A DNA stretch of 64,000 bases from Thiemannella venezuelensis. GTDB taxonomy: Bacteria > Actinomycetota > Actinomycetes > Streptosporangiales > Streptosporangiaceae. Made by a program: the position numbers and the translations under genes. Shown one piece after another: positions 12,211-59,048 of this stretch. Position 1 is the first letter of the stretch. The number at the start of each line of letters is the position of its first letter. The notes beneath the pieces are model-generated. The model had not been told where the DNA came from and did no database searches. It was given only the letters and a program-made list of their open reading frames with translations. Location: positions 124,001 to 188,000 of the forward strand of contig NZ_JACHJJ010000014.1 of NCBI RefSeq assembly GCF_014203605.1, in the 5' to 3' direction.

Positions 12211-13632
12211 TCAGACCCTCACCCGGCCCGCCACCGGCGCACCCGCGGCCGCCACCAGCGCGGTCAGCGCGAAGCACGCCAGGTAGACCGGGCCGGTGGC
12301 GCCGAAGGCCGCGACGACCGCTCCGACGGCGACGACCGTCGTCACCGTGAACACCGACTCCCCGACGCCCAGCGAGGCGCTGTTCTCGCCCTCCTCCCCC
12401 GGGCTCGACAGCTCCAGGACGAGCACCGACAGCAGCGGGTACACCAGGCCGATGCCGAAGCCCATGAGCATCTCGCCCAGGAAGGCCGCGGCCACCGGGA
12501 CCCCGGGCAGGACGGCCAGGGCCACCAGCAGCAGGCCCCCGGCCATCAGCAGCGGCCCGGTGCGCAGGATCGCCACCCGGTCGTACGGCCTGCGCCCCGC
12601 GATCCACGAGGCGAGCGACCACGCCAGCGCGCCGCCGGTGAGAACCAGGCCGGCCTGGGCGGGCGAGAGTCCCCGCTCGGCGCTGAGCATGAGCGGCAGG
12701 AACAGTTCCCCGCCGAAGAAGGCGCCGGCCACGATCCCGCGCAGGACGATCACCGAGGGCAGGCCCCTGCGGACCCGGACGGTGCCGGGCGGGAGCAGCC
12801 GGGGCAGCGCCGCGGCCAGCACGGCCAGGCCGGCCAGGAGCAGGACCGGGCCGCCGCCGTCGCGGGCCGCGCCGCCGTACTGCATGAGCGCCGCGCCGCC
12901 CGCCGTCAGCACCGCCCAGCCGAGCCTGCGCCCGATCGGCGTGCGCCCGGAGGCCGCCCCGCCGGAGGCCGTGTGCTCACCCGGCGGGGTGCGGTCGCCG
13001 GAGGAGGTCCCCGCGGCGGCGGTGCGCCCGGCCGCCGAGGCGGCGGCCAGACCGCGCCAGAGCAGCAGCGCGGCGGGGACGACCAGCAGCGGCACGCCGA
13101 GGAAGACCCAGCGCCAGCCGGGCCCCTCCACCACGACGCCGGTGATCACCGGCCCGATCATGGACGGCACCACCCAGGCCGCGGCGAAGACCGAGAAGAC
13201 CTTGGGGTGCAGCCCCGCGGGGTAGACCCGCGAGACGAGCACGTACAGCGCGACCTGGAAGACCCCGCCGCCGAAGCCCTGCACGAACCGGCCCGCGACG
13301 AACACGTCCATGGTCGGCGCGGTCCCGCTGACCACCAGGCCCGCCGCGAAGACGGCCACGCCCGCCCAGAGCGGGACGACCGGCCCGTACAGGTCGCCCC
13401 AGCGGCCGCCCAGCACGGTGGCGATCATCCCCGCCGCCAGCGCCCCGCTGAAGGCCAGCGCGTACAGGCCCAGCCCGTCGAGCTCCCGCCCGACCACCGG
13501 CATGGCGGTCGCCACCGCCAGCGCCTCGAAGGCCACCAGCATGATGAGCGCCACCATGCCGACCGTCAGCGCACGGTGGCGCTGCGCGAATATCCCCGGC
13601 GTCTCCCGGGAGGTCTCTGCAACCGTCGTCAT
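12211..13632 (-). CDS. MFS transporter
   Basis: The 473-residue protein has about 12-14 hydrophobic helices. The MFS loop 2-3 motif appears as GGRWGDLYGPVVP and a motif-B-like GRFVQGFGGG follows. It resembles drug-proton antiporters. A Gly/Ala/Thr-rich central loop (near ASAAGRTAAAGTSSGDRTPP) separates the halves. It lies 48 bases downstream of the TetR gene in the same direction, so it is probably expressed with it. Substrate unknown. Confidence 0.88.
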   Translation of the reverse strand: MTTVAETSRETPGIFAQRHRALTVGMVALIMLVAFEALAVATAMPVVGRELDGLGLYALAFSGALAAGMIATVLGGRWGDLYGPVVPLWAGVAVFAAGLVVSGTAPTMDVFVAGRFVQGFGGGVFQVALYVLVSRVYPAGLHPKVFSVFAAAWVVPSMIGPVITGVVVEGPGWRWVFLGVPLLVVPAALLLWRGLAAASAAGRTAAAGTSSGDRTPPGEHTASGGAASGRTPIGRRLGWAVLTAGGAALMQYGGAARDGGGPVLLLAGLAVLAAALPRLLPPGTVRVRRGLPSVIVLRGIVAGAFFGGELFLPLMLSAERGLSPAQAGLVLTGGALAWSLASWIAGRRPYDRVAILRTGPLLMAGGLLLVALAVLPGVPVAAAFLGEMLMGFGIGLVYPLLSVLVLELSSPGEEGENSASLGVGESVFTVTTVVAVGAVVAAFGATGPVYLACFALTALVAAAGAPVAGRVRV

Positions 13633-13680
13633 GATCGGACCGTACGGCCGCCGCCCCGGCGGGCGCATCGGCCCGGTGGA

Positions 13681-14418
13681 TCAGTCCTTGGACGTAGGAC
13701 CCGCCTCAGCCGCGTAGGACGCCAGGCCGCGCAGCATCAGGTCGAGCCCGAACGCGAACCGCTCCCGGTCGTCCGCGGCCACCAGGTCGTCCACGTGCGC
13801 GACGAGGGTGGGGAAGCGGTCGGCGGGCAGAGCGCGGTAGAAGGCGCCGATCTGGCCGAAGGTCTCCTCCAGGAAGCTCGCCACGTCCTTGCCGCTGGCC
13901 CGCTGCCGATTCATGTAGAGCGAGCTCTCGAAGGCGTCGGCGCAGACGTAGAGGCCGAGCCGGTCGACCATCAGTGAGGCGATCTTCGGTGGCACACCGC
14001 CCGCGATCATAATGGCGAGCTGGCCCTCGGCGACGCGCAGCGCGTTGGGGGTGGTCGGGATGTTCGCGAGGCCGACCCTGGCGATGTCGGCGTGCGCGCC
14101 GAACACCCGGATCGCCTCCAGGAGCAGCTCCCTGAGCTGCTCCAGCCAGCGCTCCGGCTCCGGCTCGGGTATCCGGATCTCGCCGATGACCTCGTCGTAG
14201 ATCAGGTCGAGCAGTTCCTCCTTGTTCGCCACGTGGGCGTAGAGGGAGGCGGGACCGGTGCCGAGCTCCTGGGCGACCCGGCGCATGCTCAGCGCGTCCA
14301 GCCCTTCGGCATCGAGGATCCGCAGCCCCGTGGAGACGATGAGATCCCTGCTCAGGACGGTTCTCGGCGCGCTGGGTCGGCGGGTCTTGCGCCACGGCGG
14401 GACGGGGATCTCGGTCAT
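13681..14418 (-). CDS. TetR-family repressor
   Basis: The 245-residue protein has a helix-turn-helix near residues 40-65 with SMRRVAQELGTGPASLYAHVANKEELLD, typical of TetR, and a TetR_C-like ligand-binding C-terminal half. It is divergent from an MFS exporter, the classic arrangement for drug-induced derepression. The intergenic region holds eight operator-like sites beginning 35 bases upstream of its ATG. A GTATAC -10-like box at 14428-14433 on the minus strand suggests a very short or leaderless transcript. The second MFS gene follows it. Confidence 0.92.
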   Translation of the reverse strand: MTEIPVPPWRKTRRPSAPRTVLSRDLIVSTGLRILDAEGLDALSMRRVAQELGTGPASLYAHVANKEELLDLIYDEVIGEIRIPEPEPERWLEQLRELLLEAIRVFGAHADIARVGLANIPTTPNALRVAEGQLAIMIAGGVPPKIASLMVDRLGLYVCADAFESSLYMNRQRASGKDVASFLEETFGQIGAFYRALPADRFPTLVAHVDDLVAADDRERFAFGLDLMLRGLASYAAEAGPTSKD

Positions 14419-16220: not shown

Positions 16221-17426
16221 TCAGCCGGCCGGGCGGTCCAGGTGCCGCTCGGCCCACTGGCCGATGTCGCGGCGCTCGATCGCGGCGGCCATCAGGCCGG
16301 GGAAGGCGTCGGGGGTGCAGGCGAAGGCGGGCACCCCCATCGCGGCGAGCGCGGCGGCGTTCTCCCGGTCGTAGAAGGGCGCGCCCTCGTCCGACAGCGC
16401 GAGCAGCACGATCACCTGCACCCCGGCCGCGGTCATCTGGGCCACCCGGCGGAGCATCTCCTGCCGGACCCCGCCCTCGTACAGGTCGCTGATCAGGATG
16501 AAGATGGAGTCGCCTGGCCGGGTGATGAGGCCCTGACCGTAGGCGATGGCCCGGTTGATGTCGGTGCCGCCGCCGAGCTGGGTGCCGAACAGCAGCTCCA
16601 CCGGGTCGTGGAGCCGGTCGGTGAGGTCGACGACCGCGGTGTCGAAGACCACCAGCGACGTCTTCAGCGAGCGCATCGAGGCGAGCACCGCGCCGAAGAC
16701 GCTGGAGTAGACGACGGAGGCGGCCATCGAGCCGCTCTGGTCGATGCAGAGCACCACCTCGCGCTGGACCGCCCGCTGGCGCCTGCCGTACCCGACCAGC
16801 CGGGAGGGGATCACGGTGTTCTTCTCGGGCAGGTAGTTCTTCAGATTGGCGCGGATCGTCCGGTCCCAGTCGATGTCGGCGACCCGCTTGGGGCGGTGGG
16901 TGCGCGCCGAGCGGTCGAGCGCGCCGGTCACCGCGGCCTTGGTCTTCTGGACCAGCCGCCGCTCCAGCTCGGCGACGACCTTGCGGACCAGCGCGCGCGC
17001 CGACTCCCTGGCCTTCTCCGGCATCACCCGGTTGAGCGACAGGAGCGTGCCGACCATGTGCACGTCGGGCTCGACCGCCTCGAGCATCTCCGGCTCCAGC
17101 AGCAGCCGGGTCAGGTTCAGCCGCTCGACGGCGTCCTTCTGCATCACCTGGACCACGGTCGAGGGGAAGTAGGACCTGATGTCGCCCAGCCAGCGCGCCA
17201 CCCGCGGCGCGGACGCGCCGAGCCCGGCGCTCCGCTCACCCGACGGCCTGCCGCCGTCCCCGCCGCCGTTGTAGAGCGCGGCCAGCGCACCGTCCATCCG
17301 GGCGTCGGTCCCGCCCAGCGCGCACCCGGTGCCGTCGGCGTCCCCGCCGAGCACCAGCCGCCAGCGGCGCAGCCGCTCGCCGCCGTCCGCGGCTCCGGTC
17401 GCGGTCCCCGTCACGCTGTCCGTCAC
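16221..17426 (-). CDS. VWA-domain protein of the SWIM/MoxR operon (YehP-like)
   Basis: The 401-residue protein ends in a von Willebrand A domain (about 222-395). All MIDAS elements are present: DQSGS at 229-233, Thr288 in LGGGTDIN and Asp314 in ISDLYEGG, so Mg-dependent ligand binding should be intact. The N-terminal 200 residues are helical and charged (EKARESARALVRKVVAELERR). No signal peptide or membrane span is seen, so it is cytosolic. GTG 17426 overlaps the stop of the DUF5682 gene. MoxR ATPases typically act with VWA partners as metal- or ligand-dependent remodelling factors; this one is the last gene of the operon. Confidence 0.9.
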   Translation of the reverse strand: MTDSVTGTATGAADGGERLRRWRLVLGGDADGTGCALGGTDARMDGALAALYNGGGDGGRPSGERSAGLGASAPRVARWLGDIRSYFPSTVVQVMQKDAVERLNLTRLLLEPEMLEAVEPDVHMVGTLLSLNRVMPEKARESARALVRKVVAELERRLVQKTKAAVTGALDRSARTHRPKRVADIDWDRTIRANLKNYLPEKNTVIPSRLVGYGRRQRAVQREVVLCIDQSGSMAASVVYSSVFGAVLASMRSLKTSLVVFDTAVVDLTDRLHDPVELLFGTQLGGGTDINRAIAYGQGLITRPGDSIFILISDLYEGGVRQEMLRRVAQMTAAGVQVIVLLALSDEGAPFYDRENAAALAAMGVPAFACTPDAFPGLMAAAIERRDIGQWAERHLDRPAG

Positions 17427-19855
17427 GACGCCCTCCCCAGGATCTCCAGCACGGTCCGTACGGCCGCCGCCGCACGCTGATCGTCGATGTCGTCGGCCGC
17501 CGCGGCGGCGGTCGTCGCGCCGGTGCCGAGCGAGCGGGCCCGCTCGCCGATCGCGCGGCGCTCCGGAGCGGCGAAGGCGCCGAAGGTCCGCCGCAGCAGC
17601 GGCAGCACGTCCACGAACGCCTCCGGGGTCAGCCCGGTCAGCCATCCGTCGATGAGCCCGAGCAGCCGGGCGTCGTGCACCAGCAGCAGCCCGCCGCCGG
17701 AGACGAACCCCTCGACCCAGGCCGCCGCCCTGGCCGGCGGGTGCCCGGACGACATCGCCCGCGACATCCGGAGCTCGGCGCGGCCGGCGTCGAGCTCCCC
17801 GGTGTCCAGCAGGATCCGGACGATCCGCCCCTCGATCAGCCCGTGCAGGTCCGACCGCCCCGACACCGCGCGCAGCGCGCCCAGCCAGCGCCCCTTCGGC
17901 GGCTCGTCGCCCGCGGAGTCGAGCAGCCCGACGGCCGCGTGCACCGCGTCCACGTGGCCGAGCAGGCCGCGGGCGGCGTCGTCGTCCAGGCCGGTGACCG
18001 CCCCGCCCAGCCCGACGCAGACCCGGGTGAGCAGCGCGTCGACGATCGAGGCCAGCCCGGCGGCGGGCGTGCCGCGCACGTCGCCGTAGCGCTGCGCCCG
18101 GACCATCGCCGGCAGCGCCGCCATCAGGTGCGTCACGTCGCTGTCCAGCGCCGCCCGCGCCGACAGCGCCTCCAGCACGTACGGCAGCGCGTCCGGCAGG
18201 TCGGCGAGCAGGCACCGCTCCACCAGCCCCGTGAGGTCGGCGAGCGAGACCCCGCCGCCGGAGCCCGCGGATCCGCCCGCCCCCGCCGTGCCCGGGGCCG
18301 GGACTCCGCGGCCCGGTGCTCCCGACCGGCCCCGCCCTGCCGTCCCGCCCCGCGCGAGGTCGCGGACGCGGGCGGCGGCGGCCGACGGGACGGTGGTGCC
18401 CCAGGCGCCCGCCTCGATCAGGTCGATGTCGAACTCGGGACGCCAGGCGAGCGTCCACGACTCGCGGAAGGTGCCCTTGCCCCGGCTCTCCTGCGGGCTG
18501 CCCCAGTCCACGCCGAGCAGGCGCAGGCGGTGCAGCAGGCGGCTGCGCTCCAGGTCCAGGGGCTTGCGCAGGTCGAGGTCGAGCTCCCGGTCGAGGGCCT
18601 CCGGCTTGAGCTTGAGCCGCCGCTGCTCCTCGCGCAGGTGGCGCTGGAGCGGGACCATCGGGGTCGTGTCGGGCACCTGGCCGAGCCGCTCCCCCACGAC
18701 CATGTGCCGCTGGATCAGCTCCACCGGCAGGTCGTCGCCCTCGCACAGGACCGCCCTGACCGCCTCGGTGACCTCCGCCAGCCCGGCCAGCGGCCGTCCC
18801 CGCAGCACCGCCAGGGACTCCGCCAGCCGTACCGCCTCGATGACGTGCGCGGAGGAGACCGGCAGGTCCTCGGCGCGCAGCACCCCGGCGGCCTCGGTCA
18901 GCCAGCGCTCCACGGGCCGGTCCGGGGAGGCGAACAGGTGGTGGTACCAGCCCGGGGAGGTGACGCCGGCGCCGTACCCGCTCCAGGCGGCCAGCCGCCC
19001 GTAGGTCCACGGCACCCAGGTCAGCTCCACCTTGGCCTTGGGCAGGCCCTTGAGCAGCGCGTCGTCCGCCTTGGCCGGAGGCAGCCCGGCGCCCCAGCCC
19101 CGGCGGCCCCGCCCGGCCGGTCCCCCGTCTCCTCCCGATCCCGCCGGATCGGCCGGGTCGGCGAGCGCGGGGACGTGCCAGGCGCCGCAGACCACGGCGA
19201 CCCGCTCGAACCCGTCCTTGACCGCCTTGCGGACCGTGCGGCGCATGAACGCCTCGCGCCGCGCCTCGTACCCGTCCGGGACGTGGCCCTCGCGGACCGC
19301 GGCCATCGCCTCGGCGATCACCTGGAACGGCGTGTCCCCGCGGTGCTCGACCGCGTCCTCCCACCACCGCTCCGGGTCGTCGTATCCGGCGGCGCGGGCG
19401 AGCTCCCCGATCGGGTCGATCCGTACGGCCCGCGCCCGCTCCTCCTCCGCCGGGTCGTCCCCGGCCGGCGCCGGACCCGCGTCCCCGTCACCGGCCGCGT
19501 CCCCGGGGGAACCGGCCTCCTCGGAGTCCTCCGCCGGGACGGCGAGGCCGTGCGCGGCGGGCAGGTCGCAGAACCGGACCGGCACCCCCGCCCCGACCGC
19601 GTAGCGGATCGCCTGCCACTCGGGGGAGAAGACGGCGAACGGCCAGAACGCGGCCCTGGACGGCTCGCCCGGCACGTGCGCCAGCAGCGCCACCGGCGGC
19701 TGGAGATCCGGGTCCTGCGCGAGGGCGACGAGCTCGTCGGCCTCGGGCGGGCCCTCGATGAGCACGACGTCCGGCTTGAGCCTTTCCAGCTCCGCGCGCA
19801 GGGCCCGCGCCGAGCCGGGCCCGTGGTGCCGGACCCCGAGAACGGACACGCTCAT
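17423..19855 (-). CDS. DUF5682 family protein
   Basis: The 810-residue cytosolic protein opens with SVLGVRHHGPGSARAL (His10, His11), then IEGPPEAD (Glu34), then VVCGAWHVPAL (His227). Spaced His/Glu/His elements of this kind resemble the TraB/ChaN/erythromycin-esterase type of fold, which hints at a hydrolase-like N-terminal domain; this is an inference. The rest is an alpha-helical region with a Gly/Pro/Ala-rich linker near 495-550. Its biochemical role is not known. ATG 19855 has a strong AGGAGG seven bases upstream. It is the only member of the operon not overlapping its upstream gene, separated from MoxR by 135 bases. Confidence 0.87.
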   Translation of the reverse strand: MSVSVLGVRHHGPGSARALRAELERLKPDVVLIEGPPEADELVALAQDPDLQPPVALLAHVPGEPSRAAFWPFAVFSPEWQAIRYAVGAGVPVRFCDLPAAHGLAVPAEDSEEAGSPGDAAGDGDAGPAPAGDDPAEEERARAVRIDPIGELARAAGYDDPERWWEDAVEHRGDTPFQVIAEAMAAVREGHVPDGYEARREAFMRRTVRKAVKDGFERVAVVCGAWHVPALADPADPAGSGGDGGPAGRGRRGWGAGLPPAKADDALLKGLPKAKVELTWVPWTYGRLAAWSGYGAGVTSPGWYHHLFASPDRPVERWLTEAAGVLRAEDLPVSSAHVIEAVRLAESLAVLRGRPLAGLAEVTEAVRAVLCEGDDLPVELIQRHMVVGERLGQVPDTTPMVPLQRHLREEQRRLKLKPEALDRELDLDLRKPLDLERSRLLHRLRLLGVDWGSPQESRGKGTFRESWTLAWRPEFDIDLIEAGAWGTTVPSAAAARVRDLARGGTAGRGRSGAPGRGVPAPGTAGAGGSAGSGGGVSLADLTGLVERCLLADLPDALPYVLEALSARAALDSDVTHLMAALPAMVRAQRYGDVRGTPAAGLASIVDALLTRVCVGLGGAVTGLDDDAARGLLGHVDAVHAAVGLLDSAGDEPPKGRWLGALRAVSGRSDLHGLIEGRIVRILLDTGELDAGRAELRMSRAMSSGHPPARAAAWVEGFVSGGGLLLVHDARLLGLIDGWLTGLTPEAFVDVLPLLRRTFGAFAAPERRAIGERARSLGTGATTAAAAADDIDDQRAAAAVRTVLEILGRAS

Positions 19856-19990
19856 CGCCCGCCTCCTTTCCTGATGCGGCCGGGGACTTCACGGGTACCG
19901 CGGGGAGCCGCCCGGCGTTCCCGGGACGGACCGCGGTCGCGGCCGGCACCCGCCCGTCCGGGGCGGACCGCGGCCGGGGAGTGCTCCGGC

Positions 19991-21058
19991 TCAGCCCGCG
20001 TCACGGCAGGCCCGGTAGAAGTCGCGCCAGTCCGCGCGCTCGCGCACCACGGTCTCGAGGTACTCGCGCCAGACGACGCGGTCGGAGACCGGGTCCTGGA
20101 CCACGGCGCCGACGATCCCGGCGGCCACGTCGGAGGGACGGAGCACCCCGTCGCCGAAGTGCGCGGCCAGCGCGACGCCGTTGGTGATGACGGAGATGGC
20201 CTCGGCGGTGCTCAGCGTGCCGCTGGGCGACTTGATCTTGGTGCGGCCGTCCTCGGTCACGCCGGTCCGCAGCTCGCGGAAGACCGTGACGACGCGGCGG
20301 ATCTCCTCCATCCCGGCCGGGATCTCCGGCAGTTCCAGGGAGCGGCCGAGCTGCTCCACCCGGCGGGAGACGATGTCCACCTCCTCCTCGGGGGTGCCCG
20401 GCACCGGGAGCACGACGGTGTTGAACCGGCGGCGCAGCGCGCTGGACAGGTCGTTGACGCCCCGGTCCCGGTCGTTGGCGGTGGCGATGAGGTTGAACCC
20501 GCGCGCCGCCTGGACCTCCTCGTTCAGCTCGGGAATCGGCAGCGTCTTCTCCGACAGCACGGTGATCAGCGCGTCCTGCACGTCGGAGGGCATGCGGGTC
20601 AGCTCCTCGACCCGGGCGAGGCGGCCCTCGGCCATCGCGCGCATCACCGGGCTCGGGGTCAGCGCCTCCCGGGACGGCCCCTCGGCCAGCAGCCGGGCGT
20701 AGTTCCAGCCGTAGCGGACGGCCTCCTCTGCGGTACCCGCCGTGCCCTGCACGAGCAGGGTGGAGTCGCCGCTGACCGCGGCGGCCAGGTGCTCCGACAA
20801 CCAGGTCTTGGCGGTGCCGGGCACGCCGAGCAGCAGCAGCGCCCGGTCGGTGGCCAGCGTCGCCACGGCCACCTCGACGATGCGGCGGGGGCCGATGTAC
20901 TTGGGGGTGATCCGGTCGCCGTCGCCCAGGATGTAGGAGGTCACCGCCCACGGGGAGAGCTTCCAGCCCGGCGGCCTGGCCCGGTCGTCGTCCTTGGCCA
21001 GGATCGCCAGCTCCTCGGCGTACTGGTCCTCGGCGTGGGCGCGCAGCACCGTCGTCAT
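19991..21058 (-). CDS. MoxR-type AAA+ ATPase (YehL subgroup)
   Basis: The 355-residue protein has a MoxR AAA+ core: Walker A GVPGTAKT at 78-85, a Walker-B-like region ending RVEELTRMP, sensor I ATANDRDRG, and arginine-rich LSSALRRRFN. The second acidic motif is E-E rather than the canonical D-E, as seen in some MoxR groups. Context places it with the YehL subgroup, paired with SWIM and VWA proteins. It is expected to hexamerise and remodel a client protein. ATG 21058 overlaps the DUF5691 stop (ATGA), so stoichiometric co-translation is likely. Confidence 0.92.
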   Translation of the reverse strand: MTTVLRAHAEDQYAEELAILAKDDDRARPPGWKLSPWAVTSYILGDGDRITPKYIGPRRIVEVAVATLATDRALLLLGVPGTAKTWLSEHLAAAVSGDSTLLVQGTAGTAEEAVRYGWNYARLLAEGPSREALTPSPVMRAMAEGRLARVEELTRMPSDVQDALITVLSEKTLPIPELNEEVQAARGFNLIATANDRDRGVNDLSSALRRRFNTVVLPVPGTPEEEVDIVSRRVEQLGRSLELPEIPAGMEEIRRVVTVFRELRTGVTEDGRTKIKSPSGTLSTAEAISVITNGVALAAHFGDGVLRPSDVAAGIVGAVVQDPVSDRVVWREYLETVVRERADWRDFYRACRDAG

Positions 21059-22554
21059 TGCAGCTCCTTCAGCATGTCGTCACGGAAACGCAGGAGGGCG
21101 GCGACCTCCTGGATGGGCGGTTCGAGGGACAGTCGCTCGGCCAGGCCGTACAGACCGGGGTCGATGCGCTCACCGGCCAGCTTGGACAGCTCGCCGAGGT
21201 TCCACGGCTGGGTGCCGGCCAGGTCGAGGATCTTGCCGAGCACGGCCCGGGCGAGCTCCGGCCCCCACGGCGCCGCCGCGCCGCCGAGGACCATGATGAG
21301 CTGGCCGTCCAGGCCGTGACCGCGGACGAAGGCGGCGGCCAGGGCCTCCTGCTCGTCCCGGGGCAGTACGGCCAGCAGGTCGGCGAGCGGGTCGGAGCCG
21401 AACAGCTCCCGCGCCCACTGGGGGTCGCCCTGGAGCACGGCCGCCCTGACCCAGCCGGCCGTGACCTCCCGCCCCCAGTCCACGATCTTCATCCGGACGA
21501 GCTCGCGGGGCGGGCGGCCGAGCAGGCCGCTCCAGAGGCCGAGCGGGGTGCGGGCCACGACCTGCTGCAGCCACCAGCTCCGCTCGCCGGTGCCCCGGGG
21601 CGGCTTGGCCCGGATGCCGTCGCGCTCCATGGCGGCGTCGCAGGCGTCGGGCGGGTTGACGAGGATCTTGCCGTTCAGCATCGTGAAGCAGCCCGCGGCC
21701 CGCTCGGCCATCCGCCGGCCGAGACGCGAACCCGGCAGCCGGGTGAGCAGGTCGGCGGCCTCGTGCCTGACCTCACGGCGGCGGTCGTCGAGCGCGGCCT
21801 CCAGGAACGGCTCGTCGTCGAGGGAGAGCCCCTCGGCCAGCAGCTCCAGGAAGGCGGCCCGGTCGTCCGGGCCCTCCTTCTCCCAGGTCGCCGCGAGCAG
21901 CTCGCGGGCGGCCGCGGGGTCGGCGGCCCGCAGCGCGCCCAGGTGGGCACGGCGGTCCCCCGAGGTGCCCAGTTCCCACACCTCGGGGCTGGGCCCGGCC
22001 ACGGTGGCCTCCTCCGCGAGGAAGCCCCAGGCGGGGTTGAGCGCGGCCAGCCAGCGGCCCCGGCGCCCGGCGAGGACGCCGAGGTGCGGCCGGATCGAGC
22101 GGTCGCGGGCGGCGTGGTCGAGCAGTTCGGGCAGCAGGTGCGGGGAGAGCCGGTAGCCGCGGTCCGCGGCGGTGCGCAGCCACTCGGCGAGCAGCCTCGG
22201 CCGCTCGCCGCCGAGGATCCGGGCCAGCCGGTCGCCCGCGGCGCGCGGGAGCGCGAGCTGCTCCTCGGGCGGAGCCGGCTCCAGCGGCTCACCGGCGCGC
22301 AGCCGCTGCCCGGCGCGGGCCCGGACGGTCTGCACGGCGGCCCGTCCGAGCAGCTCCGCCGCGGGGTCGGCGTCACCGGAGGCGCCGGGCAGCGGCCTGC
22401 GGTCGGTGCCGACGAGCGCGGTGGAGACGAGGTCCTCCCACGCGGTCGCGGCCTCCGCCGTGGCCGGCGCGGGGGCCTCCACTCCGACCGTCGCGGGGGC
22501 CGTCGCGGGGGCCGCCCCCGTGCCCGTTCCGGTGTTCTGCGGAGCGCTGCTCAC
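21055..22554 (-). CDS. DUF5691 family protein
   Basis: The 499-residue protein starts with a low-complexity Ala/Pro/Thr leader of about 35 residues, then WEDLVSTALVGTDRRPLP, which is characteristic of this family. The rest is helical and reads like repeated alpha-hairpins, for example RREVRHEAADLLTRLPGSRLGRR, suggesting a HEAT-like scaffold (inference). A conserved segment CFTMLNGKILVNPPDACD is visible. GTG 22554 overlaps the SWIM gene stop by GTGA, and its own stop overlaps MoxR by ATGA. Function unknown; the position suggests a structural adaptor between the SWIM protein and MoxR. Confidence 0.87.
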   Translation of the reverse strand: MSSAPQNTGTGTGAAPATAPATVGVEAPAPATAEAATAWEDLVSTALVGTDRRPLPGASGDADPAAELLGRAAVQTVRARAGQRLRAGEPLEPAPPEEQLALPRAAGDRLARILGGERPRLLAEWLRTAADRGYRLSPHLLPELLDHAARDRSIRPHLGVLAGRRGRWLAALNPAWGFLAEEATVAGPSPEVWELGTSGDRRAHLGALRAADPAAARELLAATWEKEGPDDRAAFLELLAEGLSLDDEPFLEAALDDRRREVRHEAADLLTRLPGSRLGRRMAERAAGCFTMLNGKILVNPPDACDAAMERDGIRAKPPRGTGERSWWLQQVVARTPLGLWSGLLGRPPRELVRMKIVDWGREVTAGWVRAAVLQGDPQWARELFGSDPLADLLAVLPRDEQEALAAAFVRGHGLDGQLIMVLGGAAAPWGPELARAVLGKILDLAGTQPWNLGELSKLAGERIDPGLYGLAERLSLEPPIQEVAALLRFRDDMLKELQ

Positions 22555-23828
22555 AGCACCACCACCCGGCCTTCCTCGTCCCAGGTCGACAGGGGGCGCA
22601 GGCCCCCGGGGGTCCATTCGGCGGCGACGGTCAGCGGGTGCCCGCCGGAGGCGGCGACCAGCCGCCACGGGGTGCCCGCCGACGGGTGCAGCGGGAGCCC
22701 GCCGTCCGCGCCGCCCAGCAGCCACGCGCCGTTCCGCATCGGGACGACCGCGTCGAGGACCACCGGCCAGGAGTCCGTCCACGGGTCCCCCGCCAGGGCC
22801 GCCGCGATCTCCCCCAGCACCGCCTCCGGCGTGGAGCCGGGCGGCGGGGCGGCGGGGGCGGCGGCGTGCCGGGCGGCGACCAGGGCGCGCAGCGGGGCCG
22901 TACCGGGGTAGAACGCCAGCTCGGCGTCCATGGCGGTGCCGGTGACGAGCGAGGCGTCGAGGGCCTGGCCGGTGGGGGCGAAGGAGAGCACGAGCGCGGC
23001 CCGGCCGGTCGTCCTGCCGCGCAGCCAGACCCGGCGCGAGATCAGCCGCTCCTGCTCCTCGTCGCGCCGCCCCAGCACGTCCCACACGTCGCGGACGGTC
23101 TCCCCGGCGAGCACCTCCTCCCTGGTGACGGGGAAGCCCACCCGCCCCCGCACGGCCGGCGCCAGCAGCTCGCGGCGGTGGGCGGTGAGCAGGAGGTGGA
23201 GGAGGGAGTACTCGGACAGCAGCCGGGCGGGCCAGTCGTCGTCCGCCAGGACGGCGCCCAGGCGGGAGACGGTCCCGGCGACGCCGGGGGCCTGGGCGTC
23301 GACGAGGCGCTTGACCAGGCCGTCCCAGTGGTCGTGGCGGCGCGAGCCGGCGATGCCCTGCCGCACCTGGTCGGCCAGCCAGCGCTCCAGCTCCTCCAGC
23401 CCGGCCGCGACCCGCTGCTCGCGCTGCTCGGCCCTGCGGGGGTCGGGGGCCGCGCCGGGCTCCGCCGCACGGGGCGCGGCGGCGGGCCTGGCGGCGCGGG
23501 CGCGGCGCTGGTCGAGCCACTCGGCCACCCAGTCGGCGGGCTCGTCCGCGCCCGGCACTCCGTCGGCCGACCAGAGCAGCAGCAGGCCGAGCGCGTGCTT
23601 GCAGGGGAACTTCCGGCTCGGGCAGCTGCACCGGTAGGCGGGCTCGGACAGGTCCACGCACGCCCGGTAGGGCGTGGAGCCGCTGCCCTTGCACTCTCCC
23701 CACACCGCCTCGGCGGCGACACCGGCGTTCGACCACTTGCCGGGAGACGACACTCCTTGGGCCGCTTTCTGGGACGAGGCGTCGGGCGCGAGCGCGAGGA
23801 CCTGGTCCCGGTTCCACCGTTCGATCAC
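22551..23828 (-). CDS. SWIM zinc-finger protein (YehQ-like), first gene of operon
   Basis: The 425-residue protein has a SWIM zinc finger CxCx6CxH at residues 67-78 (CSCPSRKFPCKH), which can bind nucleic acid or protein. The following region is rich in Arg/Ala/Pro, then a long conserved helical part without known motif. GTG 23828 is preferred because the family begins IERW-QVLALAPDASS; a TTG at 23858 would add ten residues. TAGCGT seven bases before this GTG could be a -10 element, which would give a leaderless mRNA. It leads the operon SWIM-DUF5691-MoxR-DUF5682-VWA. Confidence 0.88.
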   Translation of the reverse strand: MIERWNRDQVLALAPDASSQKAAQGVSSPGKWSNAGVAAEAVWGECKGSGSTPYRACVDLSEPAYRCSCPSRKFPCKHALGLLLLWSADGVPGADEPADWVAEWLDQRRARAARPAAAPRAAEPGAAPDPRRAEQREQRVAAGLEELERWLADQVRQGIAGSRRHDHWDGLVKRLVDAQAPGVAGTVSRLGAVLADDDWPARLLSEYSLLHLLLTAHRRELLAPAVRGRVGFPVTREEVLAGETVRDVWDVLGRRDEEQERLISRRVWLRGRTTGRAALVLSFAPTGQALDASLVTGTAMDAELAFYPGTAPLRALVAARHAAAPAAPPPGSTPEAVLGEIAAALAGDPWTDSWPVVLDAVVPMRNGAWLLGGADGGLPLHPSAGTPWRLVAASGGHPLTVAAEWTPGGLRPLSTWDEEGRVVVL

Positions 23829-23983
23829 GCGCCGAACGCTAGCCAACCCCGCCGACAAATTCGGGTCATCACCATATATCCCTTATTTCCGCCGCTAGAA
23901 GGCCGGGTCCCGGTGCCGGAACGGGCACCGCCCCGGCCCGTGCTCCCGCCGGACCTGATGCGGCCTGCCCTTACCATCGTGCG

Positions 23984-58751: not shown

Positions 58752-59048
58752 GGAGGACATAGTCTCTAACCAGCCTTTATTCGTCCACTCGACCTCTAGA
58801 AACCCTACCGAATCGGTCCTAACGTCCCCATCTTCCGCCCCAATGACACCAGAGGGAAGCCGGTTGCCGACCCCGAACGGCGGTGCGTGGCTGGGTGGTC
58901 CCGCCAGTCTGCCATGGAAGGCGACCCCGGGGTCCCGGAACTCCGGGACGCGTCCGCCCGGTGACCCTCCGGAGGCGGCGGGCGGCCCGCCACCGGATTC
59001 ACGCGGGGCACGCCTCCTTGTCGGAGCGAGCGGGTACGGTTGGCTGTC

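Follow-up and report, generated by a model that had tools for sequence, protein, structure and literature searches.

A five-gene MoxR-VWA operon of Thiemannella venezuelensis behind a PafBC-type promoter motif: a candidate DNA-damage-induced remodelling machine

The operon described here lies on the reverse strand of a 64,000-nucleotide (nt) stretch of the Thiemannella venezuelensis genome (assembly GCF_014203605.1, contig NZ_JACHJJ010000014.1, positions 124,001 to 188,000), referred to below as the window. It encodes a SWIM zinc-finger protein, a DUF5691 protein, a MoxR-type AAA+ ATPase, a DUF5682 protein and a protein with a von Willebrand factor A (VWA) domain, and is preceded by an exact copy of the promoter motif of the PafBC (RecA-NDp) regulon. 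What is new here is a MoxR-VWA set that probably, and unexpectedly, belongs to the DNA-damage response. Direct observations are the promoter motif, the domains and residues named in this text and the gene unit itself; the features are as follows.

23836..23857, minus strand: PafBC-type (RecA-NDp) motif TGTCGG-N10-TA-N3-T, exact, ending 7 nt before the SWIM start codon
22551..23828, minus strand: SWIM zinc-finger protein, 425 amino acids (aa), GTG start, Pfam SWIM 2.8e-06, counterpart of the SWIM part of Escherichia coli YehQ
23595..23630, minus strand: SWIM zinc-binding motif CSCPSRKFPCKH, from the sequence and conservation counts
21055..22554, minus strand: DUF5691 alpha-solenoid protein, 499 aa, Pfam 3.9e-146, a proposed target adaptor or scaffold
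19991..21058, minus strand: MoxR-type AAA+ ATPase, 355 aa, Pfam AAA_5 1.8e-38, YehL counterpart
17423..19855, minus strand: DUF5682 protein, 810 aa, Pfam 3.1e-283, YehM counterpart, with a likely N-terminal TraB/TIKI-type domain and a helical C-terminal solenoid
19067..19855, minus strand: the putative TraB/TIKI-type alpha/beta domain of DUF5682, residues 1-263, with H10, E34, R200-E201 and H227
16221..17426, minus strand: VWA protein of CoxE type, 401 aa, Pfam VWA_CoxE 9.4e-54, complete metal ion-dependent adhesion site (MIDAS), YehP counterpart

Gene coordinates and Pfam searches agree with an earlier, sequence-only reading of the window, which had named five same-strand genes of these families; its account of the genes was right, and the PafBC-type motif upstream of them had escaped it. 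Of the stop/start overlaps that it described, three of four bases each are present (17423-17426, 21055-21058 and 22551-22554), and the MoxR and DUF5682 genes stand 135 nt apart, so the five-gene set is not a single unbroken overlap chain. The functional residues to which it had pointed are well kept in alignments of relatives: the cysteine ligands of the SWIM zinc finger occur in 94/94 and its histidine in 95/95 covered rows, the DxSxS motif and third Asp of the VWA MIDAS in 101/101 (its Thr in 99/101), and the N-terminal His10, Glu34 and His227 of DUF5682 in all 108 rows. In the MoxR protein, Walker A Lys84, sensor-1 Asn195 and Arg211 are kept in 104/104 rows, and Walker B reads EE, not DE, in all 104 as well, E. 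coli YehL included. Its nearest solved sequences are Midasin and NorQ. An NCBIfam MadB_ATPase match to this protein reached 42 bits, far below the 475-bit cut-off, and the family was rejected; a Pfam Amidohydro_2 match on the VWA protein was likewise below the family cut-off.

Relatives were collected by a scan of genome contigs, and the best 80 of at least 569 were used as loci (given below by L numbers), so the locus set leans to close kin. In this gene-neighbourhood survey, which the sequence-only reading had suggested, all five genes are present in 70 of the 80 loci. The order SWIM-DUF5691-MoxR-DUF5682-VWA is colinear in 38; SWIM-DUF5691 is divergent from MoxR-DUF5682-VWA in 25, and SWIM and DUF5691 are fused in one reading frame in seven. 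Seven loci are without one part where the contig ends, and three are exceptions (L058, L062 and L066). The set is found in Actinobacteria, Cyanobacteria, Deinococcus, Bacteroidota and Alphaproteobacteria, and partially in Fusobacterium; it recurs whole in plasmid-collection records of Deinococcus, Hymenobacter, Rhizobium, Methylosinus, Methylobacterium and Nocardia. The five families thus co-occur beyond close relatives and across several phyla, in line with the wide conservation that had been supposed. Among 149 sampled genomes of the phylum, DUF5682 occurs in ten, and DUF5691 above its cut-off in nine, all within those ten; in the tenth, DUF4132 adjoins DUF5682. One further genome has a sub-threshold DUF5691 match without DUF5682.

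Upstream of the set, the first motif scan used a longer RecA-NDp consensus. In upstream regions of the relatives, the word TTGTCAGTG occurs in 27/30 divergent Streptomyces-type regions and TGTCGGTGG in 11/46 colinear regions, and both match the printed mycobacterial PafBC motif, TGTCGG or TGTCAG-10N-TA-3N-T (PMC8151990; papers are cited here from extracts of their text). The motif was then counted in 74 actinobacterial SWIM promoter regions, a set from which four cyanobacterial loci and two loci with no SWIM match (L018 and L071) were dropped. Exact TGTC[A/G]G-N10-TA-N3-T is present in 53 of the 74, where 0.05 would be expected from the background rate, and at most one mismatch is seen in 69, compared with 0.9 in dinucleotide shuffles. 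Because 26 of the 74 regions are from Streptomyces, they are not independent, and the genus count is the safer number: the exact motif spans 17 of 27 genera. None of the 74 has a match at any of eight wrong spacings, in reversed form or on the opposite strand, and in colinear operons the regions ahead of the internal genes have none either (0/44, 0/44, 0/43 and 0/44). Spacing is also narrow, as the first in-frame start follows the exact motif by 7 nt in 37 and by 6 nt in 11 of the 53 cases. The motif also occurs at loci of other make-up: five of six actinobacterial loci without DUF5691 (L009, L101 and L103-L106) have an exact motif upstream of the set; it lies 55 nt before a long frame, a WGR-DUF4132 gene, in L105, and 5 nt before the first long frame in L106.

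The company that the motif keeps in this genome points in the same direction. There are 45 copies in 8.18 Mb, compared with six of the reversed pattern; 30 of the 45 sites were examined as loci, and one further site separately. Eleven of the 30 stand at most 50 nt ahead of genes for DNA repair or replication, several of which were read in part only: dnaG (6 nt), an RNase_T-type exonuclease gene (7 nt), nfo (9 nt), ligA (34 nt), uvrC (7 nt), uvrA (45 nt), radA (6 nt), pcrA/uvrD (7 nt), recA (46 nt) and uvrB (7 nt). The eleventh, a second exact copy in the window (59019-59040, plus strand), stands 8 nt before a DinG/YoaA-like helicase gene. Six of the eleven share the 6-7 nt spacing. Among the 30 sites, one is that of the SWIM operon itself and another precedes a gene with a WYL domain; the site examined outside the 30 is likewise followed by a WYL regulator. 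A proteasome/pafA locus with a WYL-WCX regulator, putative by its domains, is present in this genome. With an exact motif 7 nt from its start codon, of the kind common to recA and uvr genes here, the operon has the promoter motif of the PafBC (RecA-NDp) regulon, which is a regulon and not a protein family. In Streptomyces coelicolor, RecA-NDp promoters have been reported for recA and SCO6735, and SCO6735 rose 5-fold after UV (PMC5087735). Loss of pafBC in Mycobacterium smegmatis went with lower levels of proteins that bear the names MoxR1, MoxR2 and von Willebrand factor and that may be kin of this set (PMC5656591). Judged from promoter sequences, the operon is very probably under DNA-damage regulation in Actinobacteria.

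Several observations weigh against this regulation or narrow it. The exact motif is lacking in 21/74 SWIM promoters, and among nine further DUF5691-type loci (L011, L094-L100 and L102) three have it and six do not, three of these having one mismatch and three having two or more. In L104, whose first gene runs near the contig end, no motif was found. The divergent MoxR/AAA arm has a CA-for-TA variant in 27/30 cases and an exact copy in 0/30; opposite-strand control matches occur in 13 of these 30 regions, which probably contain the motif of the SWIM arm. A LexA study of Streptomyces venezuelae states that, in an initial search, the PafBC motif of M. smegmatis was not seen to be conserved in that species (PMC9380542). 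Outside the Actinobacteria, neither of two LexA patterns matched in the E. coli region, nor did one pattern of the radiation/desiccation response motif (RDRM) in Deinococcus, and four LexA-type patterns upstream in ten non-actinobacterial loci gave only three loose CTG-N10-CAG strings. A pattern for the SOS box in 76 upstream regions of relatives, cyanobacterial ones included, had no exact match and three with one mismatch. As LexA-type patterns were essentially not found elsewhere, the damage link is supported for Actinobacteria only. In Deinococcus, a DUF4132 gene was strongly raised on DdrO depletion and not in irradiated irrE mutants, and MolR is said there to have been described as LexA-regulated (PMC8533742).

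The catalytic part of the set may reside in DUF5682. At the positions counted, H10, E34, S77, E79, D97, R200, E201, M204, G224 and H227 are invariant in 108/108 rows, E. coli included. A structure prediction, another check that had been proposed from the sequence, gave an AlphaFold2 model (predicted local distance difference test score, pLDDT, 82.7) with an alpha/beta N-terminal domain followed by a helical solenoid. In the VIA fold search, the top match over residues 1-263 of the full model was 8b6h_DQ (Z 10.3, root-mean-square deviation (rmsd) 5.4, 199 aligned), placed narrowly above helical matches that concern the C-terminal part; the same Tetrahymena complex IV protein was matched again at Z 9.2 and 9.2. 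The PDB sequence file names 8b6h_DQ as a TraB family protein, and a TraB-family subunit is mentioned for the Tetrahymena complex (PMC10060162). By hhalign, DUF5682 matches a TraB sub-profile over residues 2-37, with P 1e-5 for residues 1-300 and 1.4e-6 for residues 1-125; this sub-profile consists of five sequences, split off after the sequences were inspected. Control profiles against the five test profiles gave 0.077 or worse for DUF5691, MoxR and VWA and 0.054 or worse for SWIM. The order of motifs in the TraB alignment, GxxH, E, ER-M, GxxH, is also the order in DUF5682.

The TraB assignment has counter-evidence of its own. The hhalign match covers only 36 residues and one TraB sub-profile; a mixed TraB profile of 16 sequences gave weak matches (E 0.011 and 0.0028), and Foldseek found no significant match to the model, none below 0.001. 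Profiles of ChaN (E 0.006 to 0.022, probability 6% or less; built without row L141, which was in the wrong frame) and of EreA (E 0.09 to 0.2) were tried and rejected. DUF5682 shares with the TraB/PrgY/GumN (TIKI) proteins the motif order GxxH, Glu, Arg/Glu-Met, GxxH and a predicted fold like the TraB chain. It differs from them in having no Pfam match to PF01963 (TraB_PrgY_gumN) at E 0.1 or better, a long solenoid C-terminus and a MoxR-VWA operon setting. Model and motifs taken together, the N-terminal domain is likely of TraB/TIKI type at the superfamily level, and not a member of PF01963. TIKI proteins have protease activity. The fold and the invariant residues suggest that DUF5682 is probably a metal-dependent hydrolase.

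Natural fusions give hints on how the five proteins are arranged. A SWIM-DUF5691 fusion from L029, modelled with AlphaFold2 (pLDDT 92.7), has a long solenoid after the SWIM protein, and the best matches of this solenoid were ARM/HEAT proteins (Z 8.4, rmsd 18.6), no better than a common arrangement; Foldseek gave no match below 0.001 for this model, and a ZSWIM8 row (9rwz_M, Z 7.6, rmsd 18) was too weak to use. On a Streptomyces plasmid (L009), DUF5682 and VWA form one annotated gene of 1255 aa. Together, the SWIM=DUF5691 and DUF5682=VWA fusions suggest two physical modules, one of SWIM with DUF5691 and one of VWA with DUF5682 and the MoxR ring.

E. coli carries a related set. Its counterparts yehL, yehP and yehQ had been recognized from the sequence alone, and to these must be added yehM, which is DUF5682, a point that had been missed; yehLMPQ therefore hold four of the five families, with DUF5691 lacking. 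MoxR, DUF5682, VWA and SWIM are encoded together in the window as in the YehL-YehM-YehP-YehQ set. The E. coli cluster differs in having no DUF5691, in having yehI and the pseudogene yehH (DUF4132) upstream and in its gene order; no LexA pattern was found in the stretch scanned and no function in the literature searched. Among 5,426 complete E. coli genomes, coverage of yehL-yehQ reaches at least 80% in 5,162; of the places found, 5,320 are chromosomal and two are on plasmids. In a minority of E. coli genomes the operon is interrupted or partly lost, as by IS5 in yehM of HNSQ2209.

In E. coli, Iodobacter, Allorhizobium and some Streptomyces, MoxR, DUF5682 and VWA go with DUF4132 instead of DUF5691, and the SWIM gene is present in most of these cases. 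The DUF4132 protein of L105 begins with a WGR domain. Homology of DUF4132 to DUF5691 was considered and rejected, hhalign giving none (E 0.41), so that only the place, and perhaps the role, is alike; YehQ was also considered as containing DUF5691, which profile comparison did not find. The core of the set keeps one slot that is filled by different large proteins, namely DUF5691, DUF4132 or another. In Fusobacterium (L012, 5938-7851), an unannotated 637-aa protein stands in the DUF5691 place. L106 (3550-11021) shows a third actinobacterial form, in the order VWA-bearing frame, MoxR, DUF5682.

Since the operon shares the damage switch of the recA and uvr genes, the five genes probably encode an ATP-driven machine that helps with damaged DNA. 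On DNA damage, a PafBC-type activator would turn the operon on together with recA and the excision-repair genes. The parts of the set look like those of a MoxR-VWA remodelling machine. Judging by family and intact motifs, the MoxR ring and the CoxE-type VWA protein would form a remodeller powered by ATP, on the pattern of NorQ-NorD; there, the VWA protein inserts a finger into the pore of the ring, and its twisting by ATP turnover has been proposed for the partner (PMC13036017). The SWIM finger and the DUF5691 solenoid may serve as the adaptor that brings the target, as the natural fusion and predicted fold suggest, and DUF5682, tethered to VWA, may either hydrolyse something on the remodelled target or be switched on by the motor. 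In other lineages, DUF4132 or another large protein would take the adaptor slot. Taken as a whole, this mechanism, in which DNA damage induces a MoxR-VWA remodelling machine that has a hydrolase of TraB/TIKI type and a SWIM-solenoid adaptor, is the account that we favour, with moderate confidence. Under it, the bacterial DNA-damage response would include a MoxR-VWA machine, and DUF5682 would have a catalytic domain of TraB/TIKI type. It would also give a concrete proposed function to an unexplained operon kept in about 95% of complete E. coli genomes and in several phyla.

A more specific version is offered only as a speculation that is improbable as it stands, namely that the set pulls off and cleaves proteins trapped on damaged DNA, as in DNA-protein crosslinks or stalled complexes. 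WGR domains bind DNA breaks. In such a scheme, the SWIM-solenoid or WGR-DUF4132 part would find the lesion or stuck protein, MoxR-VWA would pull and DUF5682 would process. If so, excision repair in Actinobacteria would have in this set a partner under PafBC control, and nearly every E. coli would carry a counterpart of it. As the sequence-only reading had supposed, no established function was found in the open-licence literature searched: DUF5682 and DUF5691 are not mentioned there, the yeh gene names come without a function among the matches listed (the extract of a Shigella sonnei study lists a deletion only), and the combination of SWIM, mitomycin, von Willebrand and AAA returned nothing relevant.

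MoxR-VWA pairs elsewhere had been noted to remodel metalloenzymes or to act in conflict systems, and both roles compete with the favoured reading. In the former, the operon would be a maturation chaperone like NorQ-NorD or CoxD-CoxE, in which MoxR-VWA loads a client enzyme with metal. DUF5682 itself could be that client, and the damage promoter would reflect no more than the need for the enzyme under oxidative or genotoxic stress. NorQ-NorD, CbbQ-CbbO and CoxD-CoxE all pair a MoxR AAA+ protein with a VWA partner, as here, where the VWA is of CoxE type with its MIDAS intact and NorQ is among the nearest solved MoxR sequences; the invariant His/Glu/His set of DUF5682 and its fusion to VWA in L009 would suit a metal-bearing client. 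NorQD puts iron into nitric oxide reductase (PMC13036017), and the PafBC regulon has been described as including oxidative-stress genes (PMC8223512). Against this stand the Walker B EE and the addition of SWIM, DUF5691 and DUF5682 to the pair, the SWIM protein and the solenoid being left unexplained; nor was a conserved metalloenzyme gene seen beside the operon among the 20 flanking clusters listed. With one locus per genus in 37 genera, the widest flanking family among these clusters reached seven loci of related genera, and flanking open reading frames mostly reflect local synteny of such genera, so that a fixed client gene beside the operon did not emerge; clustering was by blastp-fast, which distant homologues could escape. 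The maturation account is considered unlikely.

A conflict role, anti-phage or abortive, would make the set akin to the vWA-MoxR ternary systems, with DUF5682 as the effector and induction by invader-caused DNA damage. Both share the MoxR and vWA core, the vWA N-terminal domain of iSTAND has been likened to CoxE, and the ternary MoxR-vWA pair was derived from CoxD-CoxE systems by Kaur et al. (PMC7159879). Also in favour are a weak bpMoxR match (24.4 bits, below the 27-bit cut-off) and restriction-type genes that adjoin the set in L008 (annotated) and L012 (by eye), with a PDDEXK gene in L005. Against a conflict role, PADLOC gave only weak IetA matches to the AAA protein (E 0.0046 and 0.026). 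The VMAP, iSTAND and beta-propeller third components or effector domains had no Pfam match at E 0.1 in the five proteins. The ternary systems also differ in that the operon here has a constant five-part make-up (70/80 loci), a promoter common to uvr/recA-type genes and a soft-core presence in E. coli (5162/5426 genomes); this presence, with no relative confirmed in a scan of viral contigs, argues against a typical mobile defence system. A conflict role appears very unlikely. Finally, the motif might mark nothing more specific than a strong promoter, and the operon might encode a chaperone made constitutively for proteostasis or envelope stress. The motif is similar in its TAnnnT part to an ordinary -10 element, and 18 of the 30 genomic sites examined, besides the operon itself, lie before other genes or no clear gene and not before repair or replication genes. 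With only 45 sites in 8.2 Mb, 11 of 30 of them at repair or replication genes and six of these with the 6-7 nt spacing, this view is regarded as highly improbable.

Some further observations concern single loci. In L058 (Streptomyces, 12614-13979), no VWA was seen in the 1.4 kb past DUF5682, and the DUF5691 frame is in two pieces. The cyanobacterial contigs L062 and L066 have DUF5682 without any partner in the stretch examined, L062 beginning at a contig edge. On a plasmid of Methylosinus OB3b (L007, 11160-12385), the VWA gene is split across three frames and unannotated. Upstream of the set in L012, the open reading frames appear by eye to be restriction endonuclease-like and DNA methyltransferase-like. 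An unverified 'Bacteriophage sp.' faecal scaffold (L160, MT835988.1), perhaps a bacterial contig, carries a DUF5682 relative of 26.6% identity. The genome of the window itself has three DUF4132 matches (contigs C4, C21 and C28) and a single DUF5682 match.

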